The notes under the pieces are model-generated. The model was given only the letters and a program-made list of their open reading frames with translations, searched no databases and was not told where the DNA came from. Position numbers and translations under genes: made by a program. From NCBI GenBank assembly GCA_009379955.1, contig WHST01000026.1, forward strand, positions 1 through 59,164: a stretch of 59,164 nucleotides of DNA, given 5' to 3'. Shown here piece after piece: positions 21,717 to 56,308 of the stretch; within the stretch, counting starts at the first letter, position 1, and each line of letters begins with the position of its first letter. This DNA comes from Streptosporangiales bacterium (GTDB lineage Bacteria; Actinomycetota; Actinomycetes; Streptosporangiales; WHST01).

Positions 21717-22658
21717 TCAGGTCGCCGCGCGCACCCGCCGCACCCCGGACGGCAGGCCACCGCGGGCCGCCGAGTCGGCGACCGTCTCCAGCAGGGTCGT
21801 CCCGAACGCACGGGCGGCGTGGATCGGCGTCACGCCGCTGCGGTGCGCGAGCGCGATCGTGCGCGACAGCCCGGGCGCCGCGAGCGGGGTCGCCCGCAGG
21901 CCGGCACGGTCAGCGAGCACCATGCTCGGCACGATCGCGATGCCCAGCCCCGCCTCGACGAAGCGCAGCACCGCGTCCATCTCGCCGCCCTCCACCGACA
22001 GCCGCGGACGGACGCCCGCCTGCTGGCACGCCTGCAGCGTGACGTCACGCAGGTCGTAACCCTCGCGGAACATCACGAGCGGCCGGTCACGGAGGTCCGC
22101 GAGCCGGAACCTGCTGCGCCGCGTGGGCGGCGGCTCCCCCGCCGGTGACGCGACGACGAGGTCCTCGCGCAGCAGCGGCTGCAGGACGAGCCGCTCGTCC
22201 GCGCCCGATGCCGGCACGATCACGAGGGCGACGTCGAGCTCGCCCTGGTCGAGCTGGCGGACGAGGTCACGTGACCCGTTCTCGGTGACCTCGAGCTCGA
22301 TGCCCGGATAGCTGTCGTGGAACCGTCGCAGGACGTCGGCGACGAGCGTGACGCACAGGCTCGGGGTCGCGCCGAGCCGCAGCCGGCCGCGGCGCAGGCC
22401 GATCAGCTCGAGCACCTCGGTGCGTGCCGTCTCGGTGTCGGCGAGGATCCGCCGCGCGAGCGGGAGCAACGCCTCGCCGGACGGAGTGAGGGCGACGTTG
22501 CCGCGGGTGCGGCTGAACAGCGGTGCGCCGAGCTCGCGCTCCAGCGCGTGCACCTGCCGGCTGAGCGAGGGCTGCGCGACATGACTCGCCTGGGCCGCCC
22601 GGGTGAAGTGCCGCGTCTCCGCGACCGCCACGAAGTACGCGAGCTGCTGGAGCGTCAC
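21717..22658 (-). CDS. LysR family regulator, divergent from sdhCAB
   Basis: A 313-residue LysR protein. The helix-turn-helix is TLQQLAYFVAVAETRHFTRAAQASHVAQPSLSRQVHALERELGAPLFSRTRG, and the effector domain contains GRLRLGATPSLCVTLVADVLRRF, LVMFREGYDLRDVTLQAC and FVEAGLGIAIVPSMVLADR. The start is GTG 22658, not an ATG further upstream, because LysR proteins begin at this point and because the repeat element upstream supplies a ribosome site ending exactly on this GTG. It likely controls the succinate dehydrogenase genes across the divergent promoter. Confidence 0.92.
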   Translation of the reverse strand: MTLQQLAYFVAVAETRHFTRAAQASHVAQPSLSRQVHALERELGAPLFSRTRGNVALTPSGEALLPLARRILADTETARTEVLELIGLRRGRLRLGATPSLCVTLVADVLRRFHDSYPGIELEVTENGSRDLVRQLDQGELDVALVIVPASGADERLVLQPLLREDLVVASPAGEPPPTRRSRFRLADLRDRPLVMFREGYDLRDVTLQACQQAGVRPRLSVEGGEMDAVLRFVEAGLGIAIVPSMVLADRAGLRATPLAAPGLSRTIALAHRSGVTPIHAARAFGTTLLETVADSAARGGLPSGVRRVRAAT

Positions 22659-22764
22659 GAGCCATCCGCCAAAGCGAGCATCGCAGCGGTCCGAAGCGCA
22701 CGCCTCGACCACCCGATCAGCGAGCGAGGAGCGGAGCGGAGGAGGACGGCGGGAAGCAGCGTCA
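22656..22764 (-). repeat. Start-codon element, copy 1 (109 bp)
   Basis: Read on the minus strand it begins TGACGCTGCTTCCCGCC, has the block CCTCCGCTCCGCTCCTCGCTC, then a variable middle, then GGACCGCTGCGATGCTCGC and GGCGGATGGCTCGTG, the last three bases being the lysR start codon. It shares both ends and its length with the copies at 38286-38397 and 54553-54661. Here the upstream neighbour is a divergent promoter, not a coding gene. Confidence 0.9.
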
Positions 22765-22795
22765 TAGCCTGATGCTATCGAACACCTGTTGACGA

Positions 22796-35640: not shown

Positions 35641-37188
35641 ATGGACAACGACGACATCCGCGCCGGCCTCAGCAGGCGGGGCTTCCTCGGTGCAGCGGCG
35701 GGGTTCGGTGTGGCCGCGATGGCCGGCCTCACCGCGTGCGACACGGGATACCGCGACCCCGCCACCAAGGGGCTCGGCGGCTTCAACATCCCCGACCCGA
35801 AGACGTCCCTGCCGTCCGGCGACGTCACGTTCCGCCTCATCGACAGCGGTGACACCAAGAAGCCGTTCTGGGACGCGTTCTTCGACGCGTACAGCAAGAA
35901 GCACAGCAACATCACCGTCAAGTACGACGGCCTGCCGAAGAACCGGATGGACGAGATCATCCCGCTCGGCATCCGCAACGGCACCGCGCACGACGTCTTC
36001 ATGCTGCCGCCGTCGATGACGCTGCCCCAGGCCGTCGAGGAGAAGTGGGTGTCGCCACTGGACGACCTCATCCCCGACATCGACGCGCTGAAGAAGCGGC
36101 TCCCGCCCGGCACGCTCGCCGACGGCGTCCAGATCTTCGACGGCAAGATCTACCAGTTGCCGCTCTCGACGGAGCAGCGGTACCTCTGCCTGCTGCACTA
36201 CAACAAGAAGCTGATGGACGACGCCGGCTACGACCCGTCGACCAAGACGCTCACCTGGGACGAGTACCGCGACGCGGCGAAGAAGATCACCAAGGCGGGC
36301 AAGGGCAAGGTCTACGGCGTCGTGCTCGAGATCGCCCAGCCCGACCGGCTCCAGCCCTGGGTCGACTACATGACCCGCCAGCTCGGGGTCGCGAGCGTCA
36401 ATGGCATCGACCCGAAGAACGGCGAGTACGTCTACGACCGGCCCGAGGTGCTCGACGCCATCGAGCTGATCCTGGCGCTGAAGAGCGACGGCAGCCTGTT
36501 CCCCGGCTCCAACTCCCTCACCGCGCCCGAGGCGTGGCCCCGGCTGCCCCGCGGTGCCGTGGGCATGGTGAGCGCGGGTCCGTGGGTGACGGTGCAGTGG
36601 GAGAACGACAACCCGGACTTCGAGTTCGGGGTCGCTGCGCACCCCACGCCGACCGACGACCCGCTGCCCATCGGCTACCCCGCGTTCGGCGGAGACTGGC
36701 TCTCGGTGTTCTCGAAGAGCAAGAACAAGGCGATCGCCGGTGACGTGATCTCGTACGTCCTGAGCGACCAGGGTCAGGCCCGGTGGGCAGAGATCGTCAA
36801 GGTCGGCAACCCGCCGATCGTCGAGAAGGCACGCGAGGCGGGCGCAAAGGACTACAGCGCCCAGGCGAAGGACTGCCTGGCGGTGGCCGACACCATGGTG
36901 ATCAACCCGGAGGCGGTCATCGTCAACCCGGACACCTCGGCCGTGGCGCCGCTACTGAAGATCCCGCCGCAGTTCGAGTTCGGCCAGGTGATCCAGGCGA
37001 TCCTCGTGGGCAAGGAGGACGCCCCGAAGAAGGCGCTCACCGCCCTCGCCGACCGATGCAACGGCAACCTCGACGCGGCCATCAAGGAGGCCGGGAAGAA
37101 GGGCGCGAAGGTCAGCCGCGAGGACTACGTCTTCTCGAACTGGGACCCGAAGAAGGACTACCTGCCCGCCGACTACAAGGGCCGGTGA
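35641..37188 (+). CDS. Sugar ABC transporter substrate-binding lipoprotein (Tat-type signal)
   Basis: A 515-residue binding protein. The leader LSRRGFLGAAAGFGVAAMAGLTAC carries a twin-arginine motif and a lipobox with Cys33, so it is probably folded in the cytoplasm, exported by Tat and lipid-anchored. YQLPLSTEQRYLCLLHYNKKLMDDAGYDP and LPRGAVGMVSAGPWVTVQWENDNPDFEFGVAAHP are binding-protein signatures. It is longer than usual. First gene of the operon with two permeases and a GH42 enzyme, so it should bind galactosides. The 131 bases before the permease gene show no hairpin or second promoter I trust. Confidence 0.92.
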   Translation: MDNDDIRAGLSRRGFLGAAAGFGVAAMAGLTACDTGYRDPATKGLGGFNIPDPKTSLPSGDVTFRLIDSGDTKKPFWDAFFDAYSKKHSNITVKYDGLPKNRMDEIIPLGIRNGTAHDVFMLPPSMTLPQAVEEKWVSPLDDLIPDIDALKKRLPPGTLADGVQIFDGKIYQLPLSTEQRYLCLLHYNKKLMDDAGYDPSTKTLTWDEYRDAAKKITKAGKGKVYGVVLEIAQPDRLQPWVDYMTRQLGVASVNGIDPKNGEYVYDRPEVLDAIELILALKSDGSLFPGSNSLTAPEAWPRLPRGAVGMVSAGPWVTVQWENDNPDFEFGVAAHPTPTDDPLPIGYPAFGGDWLSVFSKSKNKAIAGDVISYVLSDQGQARWAEIVKVGNPPIVEKAREAGAKDYSAQAKDCLAVADTMVINPEAVIVNPDTSAVAPLLKIPPQFEFGQVIQAILVGKEDAPKKALTALADRCNGNLDAAIKEAGKKGAKVSREDYVFSNWDPKKDYLPADYKGR

Positions 37189-37319
37189 TCCGTGGCGGCA
37201 CTCGGACAGACAGCGCAGGAGAGAGCGAGAGAGCCGGAGGTAGGGGTCGCGACGCGGTCCTGTACCGGCGCGATAGCTACCGCGACACCTGCCGGAGGCG
37301 AGCGAGCGAGCGGGCGCGC

Positions 37320-38288
37320 ATGATGCAGACAGCGCGGCTTGGGCGTACGGGCGGGCAGGACGCCGGGTCGCTGCGGCAGCGGCTGTGGCACGCACGCTGG
37401 AGCTACCTGTTCATGCTCCCCGCCCTGGTGCTCGGCGCCCTGTTCACGTTCTACCCGATGGTCGCGTCGTGGTACATCTCGTTCCTCGACTGGTCGGGCC
37501 TCGACTCCGACCGGCGGTGGGTCGGGCTCGCCAACTACCGCGAGGCGCTCGGCGACGCCGCGTTCTGGGACGCGTTCGGCAGGACGTTCGCGTTCACGCT
37601 CGTCGCGGTGCCGGTCATGCTGGTGCTCGCGCTGCTCGCCGCACTCGCGCTGAACGACCAGGCGCTGCGCATGCGCGCGGTGTTCCGCACCATGTTCTTC
37701 CTGCCGGTCGTCACCACCACCGCGATCGTCGGTGTCGTGATGTCGCTCATCATGAACCCGTTCGACGGACCGCTGAACTCCGCGCTGCTCACCATCGGGA
37801 TCGTCGACGCGCCCATCGACTTCCTCGGCGACCCGAACCTCGCCCTGTGGTCGGTCGCCGGGGTGTTCGTGTGGAAGTGGATGGGCATGTCGATGATCTA
37901 CTGGCTCGTCGCGCTGCAGACCGTGCCGGAACAGCTGTACGAGGCGGCGCGCGTCGACGGCGCGTCGCGCTGGCGGACGCACCGGCACATCACCGTGCCG
38001 CTGATCACGCCGTTCGCGATCATCATCATCCTCGTCACGTTCGTCGGCGCCCTGCAGACCTTCCCGCTGGTGCAGGCGATGACCCAGGGCGGCCCGGCGT
38101 TCTCGTCCGAGCTCGTCGAGGTCTACATCTACCGGCTCGCGTTCGCCGCCGACAGCACCCCGCGACTCGGGTACGCCTCGGCGGTCGCCGTCTTCTTCGG
38201 CCTCACCGTGCTGGTGCTCACCCTCGCCCAGGCCTGGGGCATCCGCCGTGCGGGCGCGTTCAAGCGCGACATCGGCGGTGCGTCGTGA
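37320..38288 (+). CDS. Sugar ABC transporter permease (MalF type)
   Basis: A 322-residue permease with six spans. FMLPALVLGALFTFYPMVASWYISFLDWSGLD is the first span and periplasmic start, LYEAARVDGASRWRTHRHITVPLITPF the EAA loop, and MTQGGPAFSSELVEVYIYRLAF the conserved late segment. Start is one of two adjacent ATGs (37320/37323); the best GGAGG is 22 bases away, so initiation may depend on upstream translation. Its TGA is the first codon of the start-codon element that leads to the next permease. Confidence 0.92.
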   Translation: MMQTARLGRTGGQDAGSLRQRLWHARWSYLFMLPALVLGALFTFYPMVASWYISFLDWSGLDSDRRWVGLANYREALGDAAFWDAFGRTFAFTLVAVPVMLVLALLAALALNDQALRMRAVFRTMFFLPVVTTTAIVGVVMSLIMNPFDGPLNSALLTIGIVDAPIDFLGDPNLALWSVAGVFVWKWMGMSMIYWLVALQTVPEQLYEAARVDGASRWRTHRHITVPLITPFAIIIILVTFVGALQTFPLVQAMTQGGPAFSSELVEVYIYRLAFAADSTPRLGYASAVAVFFGLTVLVLTLAQAWGIRRAGAFKRDIGGAS

Positions 38289-38397
38289 CAGTGTTTCCCG
38301 CCGCCCTCCTCCGCTCCGCTCCTCGCTCACTTGCGCTACGCGTCGAGGGTGCGGACTCCATCCTCGCTGCGATGCTCGCTTTGGAGGACGGCTCATG
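38286..38397 (+). repeat. Start-codon element, copy 2 (112 bp)
   Basis: Begins on the stop codon of the MalF-type gene (TGACAGTGTTTCCCGCC), shows CCTCCGCTCCGCTCCTCGCTC, a variable middle, then CGCTGCGATGCTCGCTTTGG, then GGAGGACGGCTCATG with the ATG starting the MalG-type gene. GCCGCCCTCC near the 5' end can pair with GGAGGACGGC at nine of ten bases, which would hide the ribosome site. Confidence 0.92.
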
Positions 38398-39300
38398 AGT
38401 GCCACCGGGACCGTCCCCGCGGTCGCCGGCACCGCACCGCCAGTGACCACACCACGCCGCCGGCGCCGCGGCGGCGGGCGCGGGCTGGCCCGCGAGATCA
38501 TCGTGAGCCTGATCCTGCTGCCGATCTGCCTGCTCTGGATCTACCCGTTCCTGTGGATGGTCGGGGCGTCGCTGAAGTCCGACTCGGAGATCTTCGGCCG
38601 GGTCGGCATCCTGCCGGAGACGCCGGTCTGGGAGAACTACGCCCGCGCCTGGTACGAGGCCAACATCGGGCCGTACTTCTTCAACACCCTCATCGTCACC
38701 GTCGCGGTCATCGCGATCGTGACGGTGACGACCGCGATGATCGGCTACGTCATCGGCAGGTACCCGTTCCCGGGCAAGAAGGTGCTCGTCGGCGTCCTCG
38801 TCGCGTCGCTGTTCCTGCCCGAGGGCTACACGATCATCCCCGTCTTCGACCTGGTCAACAGCCTCGGCCTGTCCGGCTCACTGTGGGGGATCATCCTCGC
38901 GGAGTCCGGCGGGGCGCACGTCATCCAGATCATGCTGTTCGCCGGCTACTTCCGGCAGCTGCCCAGGGAGCTGGAGGAGGCGGCGCGGATGGACGGCGCC
39001 GGGTTCCTGCGGATCTTCTGGCAGGTGATGCTCCCGCTCGCCAAGCCGGCCATCGCCACCGCGATCATCATGACGCTGATGCGGGTGTGGAACAGCTTCC
39101 TCATCCCTCTCGTGCTCACGCTGCCGCGACCTGAGCTGCGCACGCTGGCCGTCGGCGTGTACTCGTTCCAGGGCGAGAACTTCACCGACTGGTCCGGCAT
39201 GGCCGCGGCGTCGACGATCGCGCTGCTGCCCATCGTCGTCGTCTTCCTGCTGCTGCAGCGCTACTTCGTCGAGGGCGTCGCCGGAGCCGTCCGCGCCTGA
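38395..39300 (+). CDS. Sugar ABC transporter permease (MalG type)
   Basis: A 301-residue permease with six spans. LPICLLWIYPFLWMVGASLKS is span 1 and loop, RELEEAARMDGAGFLRIFWQVMLPLAKPAIAT the EAA loop, and FLLLQRYFVEGVAGAVRA the usual ending. ATG 38395 is provided by the repeat element, with GGAGGA eight bases before it. An in-frame upstream extension exists but consists only of translated repeat. Confidence 0.93.
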   Translation: MSATGTVPAVAGTAPPVTTPRRRRRGGGRGLAREIIVSLILLPICLLWIYPFLWMVGASLKSDSEIFGRVGILPETPVWENYARAWYEANIGPYFFNTLIVTVAVIAIVTVTTAMIGYVIGRYPFPGKKVLVGVLVASLFLPEGYTIIPVFDLVNSLGLSGSLWGIILAESGGAHVIQIMLFAGYFRQLPRELEEAARMDGAGFLRIFWQVMLPLAKPAIATAIIMTLMRVWNSFLIPLVLTLPRPELRTLAVGVYSFQGENFTDWSGMAAASTIALLPIVVVFLLLQRYFVEGVAGAVRA

Positions 39301-47115: not shown

Positions 47116-47224
47116 CCACCTCCGCGTACGCGCTGCGCGAAACACCGAGCGCGAAAAAATGGTGCACAGCCAGGTGATCACTGGCATAGGGTGGCCGTAC
47201 ACGCGAGAGGAGGTGGTCCAGTAG

Positions 47225-47263
47225 ATGTGTAGCTATCGGACTCGTGAGGTGGCTGTCAGCTAG
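47225..47263 (+). CDS. Very short ORF MCSYRTREVAVS
   Basis: Twelve codons from ATG 47225 to TAG 47263. The sequence AGGAGGTGG stands eight bases before the ATG, one of the strongest ribosome sites in the window, which argues that it is translated. It contains one Cys and two Arg codons. Its position at the head of a hairpin-rich transcript suits a leader peptide, but no downstream gene on the same strand is controlled; the next gene on the right is on the opposite strand. Confidence 0.5.
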   Translation: MCSYRTREVAVS

Positions 47264-47359
47264 TCGCCGCACCTTCGTACCTGCTTCGCAGGTCGTTGCA
47301 GTGCTGACCGCCTTCGGCGGTCTTGCGACAGTGGCGACGGCGAATTCCAGGCATCCACC

Positions 47360-47430
47360 CGGCCCCCGAGCACCGGTTCAGTCCGACCGGCTCCGCCTCT
47401 CTGGCGGAGAAGTTGCTCGGGGGCCGTTTC
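47360..47430 (+). terminator. Three-way-junction hairpin with terminator features
   Basis: CGGCCCCCGAGCA (47360-47372) pairs perfectly with TGCTCGGGGGCCG (47414-47426). Inside are CCGG/CCGG and a perfect CTCCGCC/GGCGGAG hairpin (47391-47409). TTTC follows directly. It can end the short transcript. Confidence 0.6.
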
Positions 47431-47464
47431 ACGTGCGCGCGATGGGCGCCGGGGTGCGGCGTCG

Positions 47465-51505: not shown

Positions 51506-53179
51506 GTGGACGAGGCCGAGCACTGGCGGCGGGCCGGACGCCTCCTGGTCGCCAAGGCCGTCGCCGAGCTCGGCTACGAGGAGCTGCTCCGCCCCGAACC
51601 CGACGCCGCGGGCTACCGCGTGGCAGGCCACACCTTCGCCGCGACCCGCGGCGGATGTGGGCACTGGACCGTCGACCCCCACTCCGTACGCCGCGACGGA
51701 GCCGAGGCCACCGACCCCGTCCGCTTCCTCCTCGACGCCGCCCCCGCGCTCGGCCTCGACGGGCTCCGGCTCGCCGAGGCGGTCGACGAGATGACCGCGA
51801 CCTGGGCGGCGGACGCCCGGCTGCTCGCGACGACGCCGACCGCCGCCGCCCTCGCCGACGCCGGGACGGCCGAGCTCGAGTCGTGGCAGCAGGGGCACCC
51901 GGGCATGGTGCTCAACAAGGGGCGGCTCGGCTTCTCGGCCGCCGACGCCGCGGCGTACGCACCCGAGTCCGGCCGTACCTTCTGCCTGCCGTGGATCGCG
52001 GTCGACGAGAGCCTGGCGGGCCACCACGGGGTGCCGGCCGACCGGCTGCTCGCCGAGGAGCTCGACGACGACACCCGCGCGCGGTTCTCCGCCGCGTGCC
52101 CGCGTCCCGGCCACGTCTGGCTGCCGGTCCACCCGTACCACCTCGATCACGTGGTGCGCACGCTGTTCGCGCCGTACCTCGCCGACGGGCGCGTCGTGGA
52201 GCTCGGTGAGGCGCCCGACGCGTACCGTCCGCTGGCGTCCGTGCGCACGCTCGTCAACACCGACCACCCGTTGCGCAGGACCGTGAAGCTGCCGCTGCAG
52301 ATCCGCAACACCCTCGTCTGGCGCGGCCTGCCCGCCGACACCACGGCCGAGGCGCCCGCCGTCACCGGCTGGCTGCGCGGCATCCGCGACGCGGACCCGT
52401 ACCTGCGCGACGTCACGCGCTTCGACATCCTCGGCGAGGTGGCGTCCGTCGCGGTCACGCATCCGGCGTACGCCGAGGTGCCCGACGCGCCGTACCGCTA
52501 CCACGAGCTGCTCGGCGCGGTGTGGCGCGAGCCCGTCGAGGCGCACCTCGCGGCCGGCGAGCGGGCACGCAGCCTCGCCGGGCTGCTCCAGGTGGGCTCG
52601 GACGGACGCGCGCTGGTCATCGAGCTGGTCGACCGTTCCGGGCGCGACGCCACCGGCTGGCTCACCGGCCTCGCGCACGCGGTGCTGCCCGGTCTGCTGC
52701 ACTTCCTGCACGCGTACGGCGTCGCGTTCTGCCCGCACGGCGAGAACACCGTGGTCGTGTACGACACCGACGGCGTGCCCGACCGCATCCTCGTCAAGGA
52801 CCTCGCCGACGACGTCAACGTGCTGCCGTCGACCGAGGCGCCGCGGCTGCTGCTGCGCTGGCCGCACGAGGAGCTCGCCCACTCGATCCTCAGCGCCCTG
52901 GTCGCCGGCCACTTCAGGCACCTGGCGCCGCTGGTCGAGGAGCACCTCGGCGTGCCGGAGCAGGCGTTCTGGCGGCTGTTGCGCGCCGAGGTCGACGCGT
53001 ACCGCGAGACGTTCCCCGCCACCGCGAGCGACCCGTACGGCCTCACCGCGGCGGAGTTCGGCCGGGTCGTGCTCAACACCGAGCAGCTGACCAGCGGCGC
53101 GTTCCACGACCGGGCCGAGAAGGACGAGGCGTTCGACGAGATCAGTGGCACGGTCCGCAACCCGTTGGCGGAGGTGTGA
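51506..53179 (+). CDS. IucA/IucC family siderophore synthetase 1
   Basis: A 557-residue NRPS-independent siderophore (NIS) synthetase, which adenylates a carboxylate (citrate or a dicarboxylic half) and joins it to an amine or hydroxylamine. Conserved blocks: GHPGMVLNKGRLGFS, LPVHPYHLDHVV, PLASVRTLVNT...RRTVKLPLQIRNT, HAYGVAFCPHGENTVVVYD and VLVKDLADDVNV-like RILVKDLADDVNV; the FhuF-like C-terminus follows. It is more divergent than the second synthetase (no HPxHPxxK), so it may have a different acid or amine. GTG 51506 is preceded by GGAGGG. The next gene starts within its final bases. Confidence 0.93.
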   Translation: MDEAEHWRRAGRLLVAKAVAELGYEELLRPEPDAAGYRVAGHTFAATRGGCGHWTVDPHSVRRDGAEATDPVRFLLDAAPALGLDGLRLAEAVDEMTATWAADARLLATTPTAAALADAGTAELESWQQGHPGMVLNKGRLGFSAADAAAYAPESGRTFCLPWIAVDESLAGHHGVPADRLLAEELDDDTRARFSAACPRPGHVWLPVHPYHLDHVVRTLFAPYLADGRVVELGEAPDAYRPLASVRTLVNTDHPLRRTVKLPLQIRNTLVWRGLPADTTAEAPAVTGWLRGIRDADPYLRDVTRFDILGEVASVAVTHPAYAEVPDAPYRYHELLGAVWREPVEAHLAAGERARSLAGLLQVGSDGRALVIELVDRSGRDATGWLTGLAHAVLPGLLHFLHAYGVAFCPHGENTVVVYDTDGVPDRILVKDLADDVNVLPSTEAPRLLLRWPHEELAHSILSALVAGHFRHLAPLVEEHLGVPEQAFWRLLRAEVDAYRETFPATASDPYGLTAAEFGRVVLNTEQLTSGAFHDRAEKDEAFDEISGTVRNPLAEV

Positions 53180-53181
53180 CC

Positions 53182-54555
53182 GTGCCCTCCGCCGACCTGG
53201 CGAACCTACGCGGCCTGCTCGACGTCGTCGTCCACGCGCTCGCCGCCGGGTCGGCCGAGCGCGGCGGGCCTGCGCCGTCGACCACGCCGGAGGAGCTCGC
53301 CGCGTCCTGGCTCGACCTCGAGAACGTGCCCGACGAGGGTCTCGGCGCCGACGCGCTCGCCGACATCGTCCGCCGGTACGCGGCGGGCTCCGTCGACCCC
53401 GCGGATCCGGCGTGCGTCGCGCACCTGCAGCCGCCACCGCTGCCGATCGCCGTCGCGGCCGACGTGGCGATCTCGGCACTGAACCAGTCGCTCGACTCCT
53501 GGGACCAGGCGCCGGCGGGCACCTCCCTGGAGCCCCCGGTGATCCGCTCGCTCGCCGCACTCGTCGGGTACGACCCCGGCGTGGCCGGAGGTGTGGTCAC
53601 CACCGGCGGCACCGAGTCGATGCTGATGGGCCTGCTGCTCGCCAGGGACCGTGGCACGGACGGCCGGCGCGCACGAGTGCTGTGCTCGGCGGCCGCTCAC
53701 TTCTCCGTCGCGCGCAACGCCGGCTTCCTCGGCCTCGGCGAGGACAGCGTCGTGGTCGTGCCGACCGGAGCCGACCACCGGATGGACGCCGCCGGGCTGC
53801 GCGCGGCGCTCGCCACGGTCGAGGCGGGCGGTGAGCGTCCGGTCGCCGTCGTCGCGACCGCGGGCACGACCGACCTCGGCGCGATCGACCCGCTCCGCGA
53901 GGTCGCCGCGGCGGCCCGCGAGCACGGCGCCTGGCTGCACGCCGACGCGGCGTACGGCGGCGGGGCACTGTTCTCCCGCGCCCTCGCGCCGCTTCTCGAC
54001 GGCATCGCGCTCGCCGACTCCGTCGGCCTCGACCTGCACAAGGTGGGCTGGCTGCCGGCCGCATCGGGGGTGTTCCTCGTCCGCGACGACGCCGCGTTCG
54101 CGCCGCTGGCCAGGAGCGTCGCCTACCTCAACGCGGCCGACGACGAGGAGGCCGGCTACCCGAGCCTGCTCGGCCACTCGCTGCGCACCACGAGACGCGC
54201 CGACGTCGTGCGCATCGCGGTCGTGCTGCGCGCACTCGGCCGCGACGGGCTCGGCGCGCGCGTCGACCGTTGCCACGCGCTGGCGGCGTACGCGGCCGAC
54301 CGCGTGCAGGCGCACGACGACCTGGAGCTGTACGCCGACCCGGTGCTCACGACGGTGGTGTTCCGGCTCCGCGGCGGCGACCTCGTCAACGCGCAGGTAC
54401 GGCGCGCGCTGCTGGCGTCGGGCCGGGCGGTCGTCGGCCGTACCGAGATCGGCGGCGCGGTGTGGCTCAAGCTCACACTGCTCAACCCGTCGACGGCGGA
54501 GTCGGACGTCGATGCCGTCCTCGACGCAGTCCGCGAGGCGGGGCGGTCATCATGA
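53182..54555 (+). CDS. PLP-dependent group II decarboxylase (DesA/RhbB-like)
   Basis: A 457-residue fold-type I decarboxylase of the glutamate/diaminobutyrate/lysine group. VVTTGGTESMLMGLLLARD binds the phosphate, AHFSVARNA holds the stacking His, TAGTTDLGAIDPL and WLHADAAYGGG (Asp to the pyridine nitrogen) follow, and DLHKVGWLPAASGVFLV has the PLP lysine. It probably makes cadaverine or 1,3-diaminopropane-type diamine for the siderophore. I place the start at GTG 53182, seven bases after GGAGG; GTG 53176 overlaps the upstream stop but is too close to it. Its own TGA opens the third start-codon element. Confidence 0.92.
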   Translation: MPSADLANLRGLLDVVVHALAAGSAERGGPAPSTTPEELAASWLDLENVPDEGLGADALADIVRRYAAGSVDPADPACVAHLQPPPLPIAVAADVAISALNQSLDSWDQAPAGTSLEPPVIRSLAALVGYDPGVAGGVVTTGGTESMLMGLLLARDRGTDGRRARVLCSAAAHFSVARNAGFLGLGEDSVVVVPTGADHRMDAAGLRAALATVEAGGERPVAVVATAGTTDLGAIDPLREVAAAAREHGAWLHADAAYGGGALFSRALAPLLDGIALADSVGLDLHKVGWLPAASGVFLVRDDAAFAPLARSVAYLNAADDEEAGYPSLLGHSLRTTRRADVVRIAVVLRALGRDGLGARVDRCHALAAYAADRVQAHDDLELYADPVLTTVVFRLRGGDLVNAQVRRALLASGRAVVGRTEIGGAVWLKLTLLNPSTAESDVDAVLDAVREAGRSS

Positions 54556-54661
54556 CTGTGCCTCCCGCCGCCCTCCTCCGCTCCGCTCCTCGCTCGGTTG
54601 CACTGTGCCCATGCTCTGCACTACGGACCGCTGCGATGCCCACTCCGGAGGACGGCTCGTG
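54553..54661 (+). repeat. Start-codon element, copy 3 (109 bp)
   Basis: Begins on the decarboxylase stop (TGACTGTGCCTCCCGCC), then CCTCCGCTCCGCTCCTCGCTC, a variable middle, GGACCGCTGCGATGC, and ends GGAGGACGGCTCGTG with the GTG of the second synthetase. GCCGCCCTCC can pair with GGAGGACGGC at nine of ten positions. Confidence 0.92.
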
Positions 54662-56308
54662 ACCGATGCGTTCGAGCACGCCGACCTCGTCGCCGCCGGC
54701 AACCTGCTGCGGTGCTGGGCGCGCGAGTGCGGTGCCGAGCCGGGCGACGAGCTGCGCATCCCGCTGCCCCGGGCGGGCACCGAGATCGTGGCGCCGGTGA
54801 CGTACCGCTCGGCCACCGGCTGGCACCTGTTCGGTCCGGCACGCTTCGCGACCGGCCGCTCGGTCGACGCGACGACGCTGGCGGCTTTGCTCACCGCCGA
54901 CCTGTCCGGTGACGCGGATTCGGTCGCGGACCTGGTGGGGCGGGTCGCCGACTCGACGCGGCGGATCGCGGCACACCACGCGTATCGGCAGCAACGTCCC
55001 CACGGCCCGCCAGGCACGCCGGCGTTCCTCACCGCCGAGCAGGCGCTCCTCGACGGGCATCCGTGGCATCCCGCGCCGAAGAGCCGCGAGGGCATCGGCG
55101 ACGTCGCCGCGCGCGCGTACTCGCCCGAGCTGCGCGGGTCGTTCGCGCTGCACTGGTTCGCCGCCGCGTTCGACGTCGTGCGCTACGACTCCGCCGACGG
55201 GCGGCCGTCGAGCGCGCTGTTCGGCCACGGACCCGACGGCACGGCGCTCGTGCCCGCCCATCCCTGGCAGGCGCGCGACCTGCTCGACCGCCCGGCCGTC
55301 CGGTCTCTGCTCGACGACGGGCGACTGCGCTACCTCGGCCCCGACGGGCCGCCGTGGCATCCGACGAGCTCGTTGCGCACGGTCTACCGCGCCGGCGAGC
55401 CGGTCATGCTCAAGCTCTCGCTCGGTATGCGCATCACCAACTCCCGCAGGGAGAACCTGCGGGAGGAGCTGTTGCGCGGCACCGAGATCTGCCGGCTGCT
55501 CGACGCCGGACTCGCCGACCGCATCGCCGCCGCGCACCCGGCGTTCCGGCTGCTGCGCGACCCCGGCTGGCTCGCCGTCGAGCCGCACGAGACCGGCCTC
55601 AACCTGGTCGTCCGCGACAACCCGTTCGGGCGCACCGACGACGTCGCGTGCGTCGCCGGCCTGACCGCGCCCGGCGCGTTCGGCGCCGACTCGCGGCTGA
55701 CCGCGATCGTGCGGCGTACGGCGGAACGCACCGGACGCACGACCGGCGACGTCGCGGCGGAGTGGTTCGGCCGGTATCTCGACGTGCTCGTGCTGCCGGT
55801 GCTCTGGCTGTACGGCACGTACGGCCTCGCCGTCGAGGCCCACCAGCAGAACACCCTCGTCGCGCTCGACGGGCAGGGCTGGCCGGTCGGGGGGTGGTAC
55901 CGCGACAACCAGGGCTACTACCTCTCGGAGAAGCGCGCGCACGACGCGTACGCCCTGCTGCCGGGGCTCGGCACGCAGACCGACATCGTGACCGCCGACG
56001 CCGTGATCGACGAGCGGCTGACGTACTACCTCGGCGTGAACAACCTGCTCGGCGTGGTCGGTGCCCTCGGGTCGGCCGGGCTCGCCCGCGAGGACGACCT
56101 CCTCGCCGACGCGCGCCGCGCGCTGGAGCCGCTGGCCGACAGCGCGCCGCCGGCCGCGCTGCTGCTCGACGCGCCGACGCTGCGCGCGAAGGGAAACCTG
56201 CTCACCCGCGTCCACGGCCTCGACGAGCTCGTCGGTCCGGTCGAGACGCAGTCGGTGTACGTCGACGTGGCCAACCCCCTCGCGGAGGCGGGCGCGCGTG
56301 AGCACTGA
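54659..56308 (+). CDS. IucA/IucC family siderophore synthetase 2
   Basis: A 549-residue NIS synthetase with the full signature set: LLDGHPWHPAPKSREGI (nucleotide and acid binding), LVPAHPWQARDL, WHPTSSLRTVYRAGEPVMLKLSLGMRITNSRRENLREE, GLAVEAHQQNTLVAL and WYRDNQGYYLSEKRA. It catalyses ATP-dependent amide formation between a carboxylate and a (hydroxy)amine, most likely the second condensation of a two-step assembly. GTG 54659 is supplied with its ribosome site by the repeat element. The N-hydroxylase gene overlaps its end by 11 bases. Confidence 0.94.
   Translation: MTDAFEHADLVAAGNLLRCWARECGAEPGDELRIPLPRAGTEIVAPVTYRSATGWHLFGPARFATGRSVDATTLAALLTADLSGDADSVADLVGRVADSTRRIAAHHAYRQQRPHGPPGTPAFLTAEQALLDGHPWHPAPKSREGIGDVAARAYSPELRGSFALHWFAAAFDVVRYDSADGRPSSALFGHGPDGTALVPAHPWQARDLLDRPAVRSLLDDGRLRYLGPDGPPWHPTSSLRTVYRAGEPVMLKLSLGMRITNSRRENLREELLRGTEICRLLDAGLADRIAAAHPAFRLLRDPGWLAVEPHETGLNLVVRDNPFGRTDDVACVAGLTAPGAFGADSRLTAIVRRTAERTGRTTGDVAAEWFGRYLDVLVLPVLWLYGTYGLAVEAHQQNTLVALDGQGWPVGGWYRDNQGYYLSEKRAHDAYALLPGLGTQTDIVTADAVIDERLTYYLGVNNLLGVVGALGSAGLAREDDLLADARRALEPLADSAPPAALLLDAPTLRAKGNLLTRVHGLDELVGPVETQSVYVDVANPLAEAGAREH

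Follow-up and report, generated by a model that had tools for sequence, protein, structure and literature searches.

The closest described relatives, in behaviour, of the element reported here are the mycobacterial interspersed repetitive units (MIRUs). The original MIRU paper (1997) reportedly put forward DTGA as the insertion site and remarked that dyad symmetry was lacking. MIRUs are apparently mobile mycobacterial sequences that insert at start codons and carry an open reading frame (ORF) coupled at -4 nt (2025 review, PMC12548453). Units of 77 and 53 bp are described for senX3-regX3 (PMC4213456, PMC2453075), and both lengths equal 3n+2. Here we describe an element, mostly 107 or 110 bp long, that occurs three times in contig WHST01000026.1 of a Streptosporangiales bacterium (GCA_009379955.1); the window is this whole stretch of 59,164 nt. 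An earlier, sequence-only reading of the window had located the three copies and held that no named element behaves as they do, which the MIRUs contradict (PMC12548453). The element is most likely mobile, non-autonomous and MIRU-like: it would insert at start codons and, through coupling, leave the gene behind it translated. The open-access literature searched gave no prior description of such an element outside mycobacteria.

The host genome (6.61 Mb) holds about 75 copies. With as many as 3 mismatches allowed, a 24-mer from the 5' end of the element has 73 matches there and its reversed control none, and R1, a covariance model built from 68 copies, has 74, so the three window copies are not a product of chance. 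A search with the right end adds one internally deleted copy. Nearly every unit is bounded by RTGA at both ends, the left end reading RTGAC. The spacing from RTG to RTG in the host is 107 bp in 39 copies, 110 bp in 27 and 104 bp in 2, and thus of the form 3n+2 in 68/72; the copies that depart from it are degenerate. Such spacing yields a continuous frame from the left RTG to the TGA that overlaps the right RTG. The resulting mini-ORF of 34-37 codons starts at the left (old) RTG, ends on the TGA of the right RTGA with a 4-nt overlap with the downstream start, and encodes a peptide of the pattern MTVxPAxLLRSAPRS...AAMLTxEDGS followed by the stop. Another 41 copies in genomes G001, G002, G003 and G049 have lengths of 62, 68, 71, 74, 83, 89, 92, 104 or 110 bp, all of them 3n+2 and open. 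The frame is also preserved in an internally deleted copy of 47 bp (L271, G000:C74:28879-28902) and in a copy of 137 bp with an insertion of about 30 bp (L266, G000:C23:31353-31493), both lengths being counted from the printed sequence. The variable middle has no in-frame stop in 109 aligned copies, where composition predicts 11.0 + 4.1 (about 15); its other reading frames do contain stops. A codon-position variability test found no clear excess of third-position variation in the mini-ORF and so gave no clear indication of selection on the peptide sequence; only the frame looks constrained.

The Shine-Dalgarno (SD) sequence of the next gene lies within a helix of 10-14 bp. In its core, GCCGxCCTCC, located near the 5' end and early in the mini-ORF, forms ten pairs with GGAGGxCGGC, which is the SD region. 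In the host copies 37 double-change cells keep pairing; shuffles give 10.5 and slid controls 3-10. Across genomes, in an alignment that was not fitted to structure, compensatory changes occur at 14/14 pairs of the extended helix, including pairs inside GGAGG, and total 68 cells against 26.5 in shuffles and 8-23 in slid controls; because the copies are related by descent, the shuffle counts are strong indications and not exact probabilities. The predicted probability that the SD is paired is 0.90-0.93, compared with 0.55-0.59 in dinucleotide shuffles.

The helix could instead be a DNA-level feature, a terminal inverted repeat or a hairpin recognised by a transposase, with an incidental effect on translation. 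It is the pairing that is conserved and not the sequence, as a DNA hairpin would also need, and the elements behave as mobile (empty sites and a flank signal, described below). However, this explanation accounts neither for the 3n+2 lengths and for stops being missing from just one frame, nor for the constant presence of the next gene's SD in the helix, and a fixed transposase-binding end would conserve sequence rather than pairing. We consider it rather unlikely, while noting that a DNA hairpin and translational coupling are compatible and can both hold. Another candidate is a host regulatory leader, an attenuator-like cis element recruited by many genes for co-regulation. Translational attenuators classically have a leader ORF beside a helix that sequesters the SD, and leader ORFs near starts are frequent in Actinobacteria (PMC4833913). 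Against this stand a peptide middle that is free to vary and shows no third-position excess, unrelated downstream genes, same-genus orthologues that lack the element, and the existence of tandem copies, all of which make such a leader improbable.

The features of the three window copies and the adjoining genes are as follows.

22655..22765, minus strand: copy 1, with RTGA at both ends; 36-aa mini-ORF (MTLLPAVLLRSAPRS...LADGS, then stop), whose TGA overlaps the GTG of lysR
22741..22750, minus strand: 5' arm of the copy 1 helix (GCCGTCCTCC); the pairing covaries across copies
22661..22670, minus strand: 3' arm of the copy 1 helix, with the SD (GGCGGATGGC)
21717..22658, minus strand: LysR regulator gene (Pfam), start codon supplied by the 3' end of copy 1; orthologues without the element are known
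38285..38398, plus strand: copy 2, bounded by GTGA and ATGA; 37-aa mini-ORF that lies between two permease genes and overlaps the stop of the first and the start of the second
38300..38309, plus strand: 5' arm of the copy 2 helix (GCCGCCCTCC)
38383..38392, plus strand: 3' arm of the copy 2 helix, with the SD (GGAGGACGGC)
36783..38288, plus strand: ATP-binding cassette (ABC) permease gene upstream of copy 2 (Pfam), ending on the TGA at 38286-38288
38395..39300, plus strand: ABC permease gene downstream of copy 2 (Pfam), ATG supplied by the copy
54552..54662, plus strand: copy 3, from ATGA to GTGA; mini-ORF of 36 aa
54567..54576, plus strand: 5' arm of the copy 3 helix (GCCGCCCTCC)
54647..54656, plus strand: 3' arm of the copy 3 helix, with the SD (GGAGGACGGC)
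52522..54555, plus strand: pyridoxal-dependent (PLP) decarboxylase gene upstream of copy 3 (Pfam), ending on the TGA at 54553-54555
54659..56308, plus strand: IucA/IucC siderophore synthetase gene downstream of copy 3 (Pfam)

As in the sequence-only reading, the 3' limit of each copy is the start codon of the gene that follows, and the 5' limit of copies 2 and 3 is the stop of the preceding gene; the assignments of the three following genes are borne out by Pfam (LysR, ABC permease and IucA/IucC). Copy 1 adjoins a lone lysR, and no upstream gene ends at its left TGA. The closest named relatives of this lysR are from Pseudonocardiaceae and other actinomycetes (66-69% identity). No Rfam family matches the element. 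The window also contains Ms_IGR-5 (RF02471), an actinobacterial small RNA family, at 47199-47432 on the plus strand (98.5 bits, Rfam).

The same position relative to genes is found across the copies. The right RTG opens a frame of coding composition in 60/69 copies, while only 24% of the other RTGA sites in these loci do so, and the left TGA closes a coding frame in 36/70, compared with 2.5%; this coding-frame test gives some false positives, among them window copy 1. Stop/start overlaps within operons account for about half of the copies, and the others sit at an RTGA start alone. Pfam families were assigned to 19 of the 20 downstream proteins scanned, and these are largely unrelated, with functions in transport, kinases, LytB, HPPK, siderophores and cytochrome assembly. 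One copy lies between folP-folB and folK, and a second separates a branched-chain permease from its ATPase.

A few loci carry traces of additional copies. The element at L027 (G000:C150:2724-2837) is followed by a gene that begins ATGACAGTGTTGCCCG, just as the left end of the element itself reads; a decayed second copy may have given this gene its N-terminus. To the left of L042 (G000:C39) and of L059 (G000:C13:53092) the sequence is similar to a further right end (GGAGGACCGCTCATGAC and GGAGGACGGCTCGTGAC), which suggests that these are partly lost tandems.

Orthologous junctions without the element are known for five copies, two of them the window copies 1 and 2, and all of these junctions read as bare ATGA. 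The junction of copy 2 in same-genus genome G001 is GATGCCCGATGACCGTCGG. Three more sites, at a livG-type ABC ATPase, a response regulator and folK, are empty ATGAC starts in G001; the other orthologues compared there are rearranged or start at a different codon. The copy 1 site in Actinokineospora (L073) and Amycolatopsis (L091) reads CGATAGC-N5-GCT followed directly by ATGACnnTGCAGCAG, and the window has CGATAGCATCAGGCT-ATGAC-(element)-GTGACGCTCCAGCAG at the same site. A mobile repeat inserting at stop/start overlaps had been proposed from the sequence. Mobility and the RTGA start site agree with the empty sites, whereas the overlap is not required, since a coding frame closes at the left TGA in 36/70 copies only. 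A rival view is that the three junctions are alike by descent from one duplicated operon. This is refuted, because the neighbouring genes are unrelated; the roughly 75 dispersed copies and the empty sites also oppose it, no point in its favour was found, and we regard it as practically out of the question.

The flanks point to a duplication of the target. In the host, the left and right flank letters of one copy agree above chance at positions 1, 4 and 6 (p 0.0015, 0.0065 and 0.0005), with no agreement at position -1 or from position 7 onward. Little can be read from positions 2, 3 and 5, which hardly vary, and the weak signals at -4 and -5 (p 0.03 and 0.01) stem largely from copies that adjoin other copies. 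Other genomes reproduce the agreement at position 6 (p 0.004). L063 has ATGTC on both sides and L070 has TTGAC; individual duplications are eroded, and the signal over RTGACN is only statistical. The agreement at positions 1, 4 and 6 makes a target duplication of about 6 bp (RTGACN) probable, where TGA alone had been read from the three copies. This target duplication, like the internal ORF, the 3n+2 rule, the SD-pairing helix and the copies in other genera, had escaped the sequence-only reading.

The anatomy of the copies, the empty sites and the flank signal are observed, whereas the origin of the copies by transposition, an enzyme acting in trans and coupling are inferred. The most likely mechanism is the following. 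The element would insert in one orientation into RTGAC at the start codon of a gene, with duplication of about 6 bp (RTGACN), presumably by means of an enzyme acting in trans. The original SD and start codon would then drive the ORF of 34-37 codons inside the element. This mini-ORF would end in the TGA overlapping the new RTG, and the new RTG, located 3' of the element's GGAGG, would start the interrupted gene. In the mRNA the SD would be paired with the early mini-ORF. Ribosomes translating the mini-ORF would open the helix and terminate at RTGA, and the downstream gene would be translated from the exposed SD by coupling, through unfolding and/or re-initiation. Because the element brings its own mini-gene and ribosome-binding site, the interrupted gene would probably still be translated; as insertion would then be nearly harmless, copies could accumulate. 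A takeover of initiation had been suggested for the window copies. The element does supply the SD and the start codon, but coupling through the in-frame ORF is likelier than a simple takeover.

Several observations weigh against this interpretation. Not every copy is located at the start of a gene (L018, L064 and L067 are examples), and in the more distant carriers, where most copies are 3n+2, L313, L317 and L319 break the frame rule. The flank duplication is statistical, with left and right R identical in 42/65 copies only, and the other genomes show no signal at position 1 and a weakly significant one at position 7 (p 0.04). The shared descent of the copies tempers the helix counts, as said above. 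No larger autonomous copy with the same right end was seen, the right-end search giving essentially complete or internally deleted copies. A search short of a full transposase survey gave no mobilising enzyme; the Y1 transposase (PF01797) is absent from G000, G001, G002 and G003, all of them carriers.

This last result bears on the repetitive extragenic palindromes and their associated transposases (REP/RAYT), which like the element are short chromosomal repeats with hairpin potential. An element of this type, moved by a Y1 (HUH) transposase, would be small, non-autonomous and hairpin-forming and would have a tetranucleotide-like target, all of which fits. Unlike REP sequences, however, the element lies at start codons and has a coding frame, and a flank-duplication signal is not expected from the Y1 mechanism. 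With no PF01797 match in the four carriers, where assembly gaps could still hide one, Y1/RAYT as the mobiliser is largely refuted and highly improbable. Miniature inverted-repeat transposable elements (MITEs) resemble the element in being short and numerous, without a transposase gene, and with imperfect terminal complementarity and a target duplication signal. Unlike a MITE, the element has a conserved-frame ORF, a ribosome site and a start-codon target, and no parent transposon was found. Natural bicistronic leaders share a short ORF whose stop overlaps the next start, and an RNA-unfolding or re-initiation model for translational coupling (PMC12548453), but the element is a dispersed repeat with empty orthologous sites.

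The element is also found beyond the host. R1 matches occur in 11/347 genomes of the host's order and in 7/390 genomes drawn from the class, host included in both; owing to strict filters these are lower bounds. The carriers in the order and class samples span six families. Genome G401 has tandem copies of 68-71 bp. Among plasmids, phages and viral contigs no element was found, the single plasmid match (E 0.7) being due to chance. A PPE-rich genus, which we take to be Mycobacterium, has one weak R1 match of 110 bp (L314, G520:C1:119534-119647, E 1.8e-4) that is in frame and followed by a gene start.

The MIRU core is absent from the 347 genomes of the host's order. It is found in 188/376 genomes of the PPE-rich genus, many with dozens of copies, often in tandem. 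The units there (L279-L308) are RTGA-bounded, mostly 50, 53 or 56 bp long, and contain the ORF MTRxGDDAERSDEEERR and a stop; 22 of 31 distinct units have a 3n+2 length. R1 gave no credible match to 30 MIRU loci, the best (E 0.053) being on the opposite strand. Both the element and the MIRU are RTGA-bounded units at start codons or stop/start sites. In both, a small in-frame ORF runs the same way as the gene and, with its stop, overlaps the start of that gene by 4 nt. Both have mostly 3n+2 units, a GGAGG-type SD at the 3' end and apparent mobility. Both also occur in tandem, the element as three pairs at 107-bp spacing in the host and as the G401 tandems. In contrast, the two have no detectable sequence relation, and the element is longer, mostly 107 or 110 bp in the host (62-110 bp in relatives) with a variable middle. 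The SD of the element is predicted to be buried in the covarying helix (probability of pairing about 0.93), whereas that of the MIRU is predicted to be open (0.25). Given the same architecture without a sequence match and with a buried SD, the element works like a MIRU and by sequence is not a member of the family.

A bolder proposal is that the element represents a separate, widely scattered actinobacterial class that targets RTGACN with an undescribed enzyme, and that, unlike with MIRUs, its host genes depend obligately on mini-ORF translation through the SD-locking helix. We advance it tentatively, as somewhat less than an even prospect. If the element is MIRU-like as described here, the MIRU strategy of inserting at start codons without silencing the gene, by way of a coupled mini-ORF, is not peculiar to mycobacteria and is used in at least five other actinobacterial families by an unrelated sequence. 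The covarying SD helix makes the choice between unfolding and re-initiation directly testable at dozens of near-identical natural inserts with empty sites.
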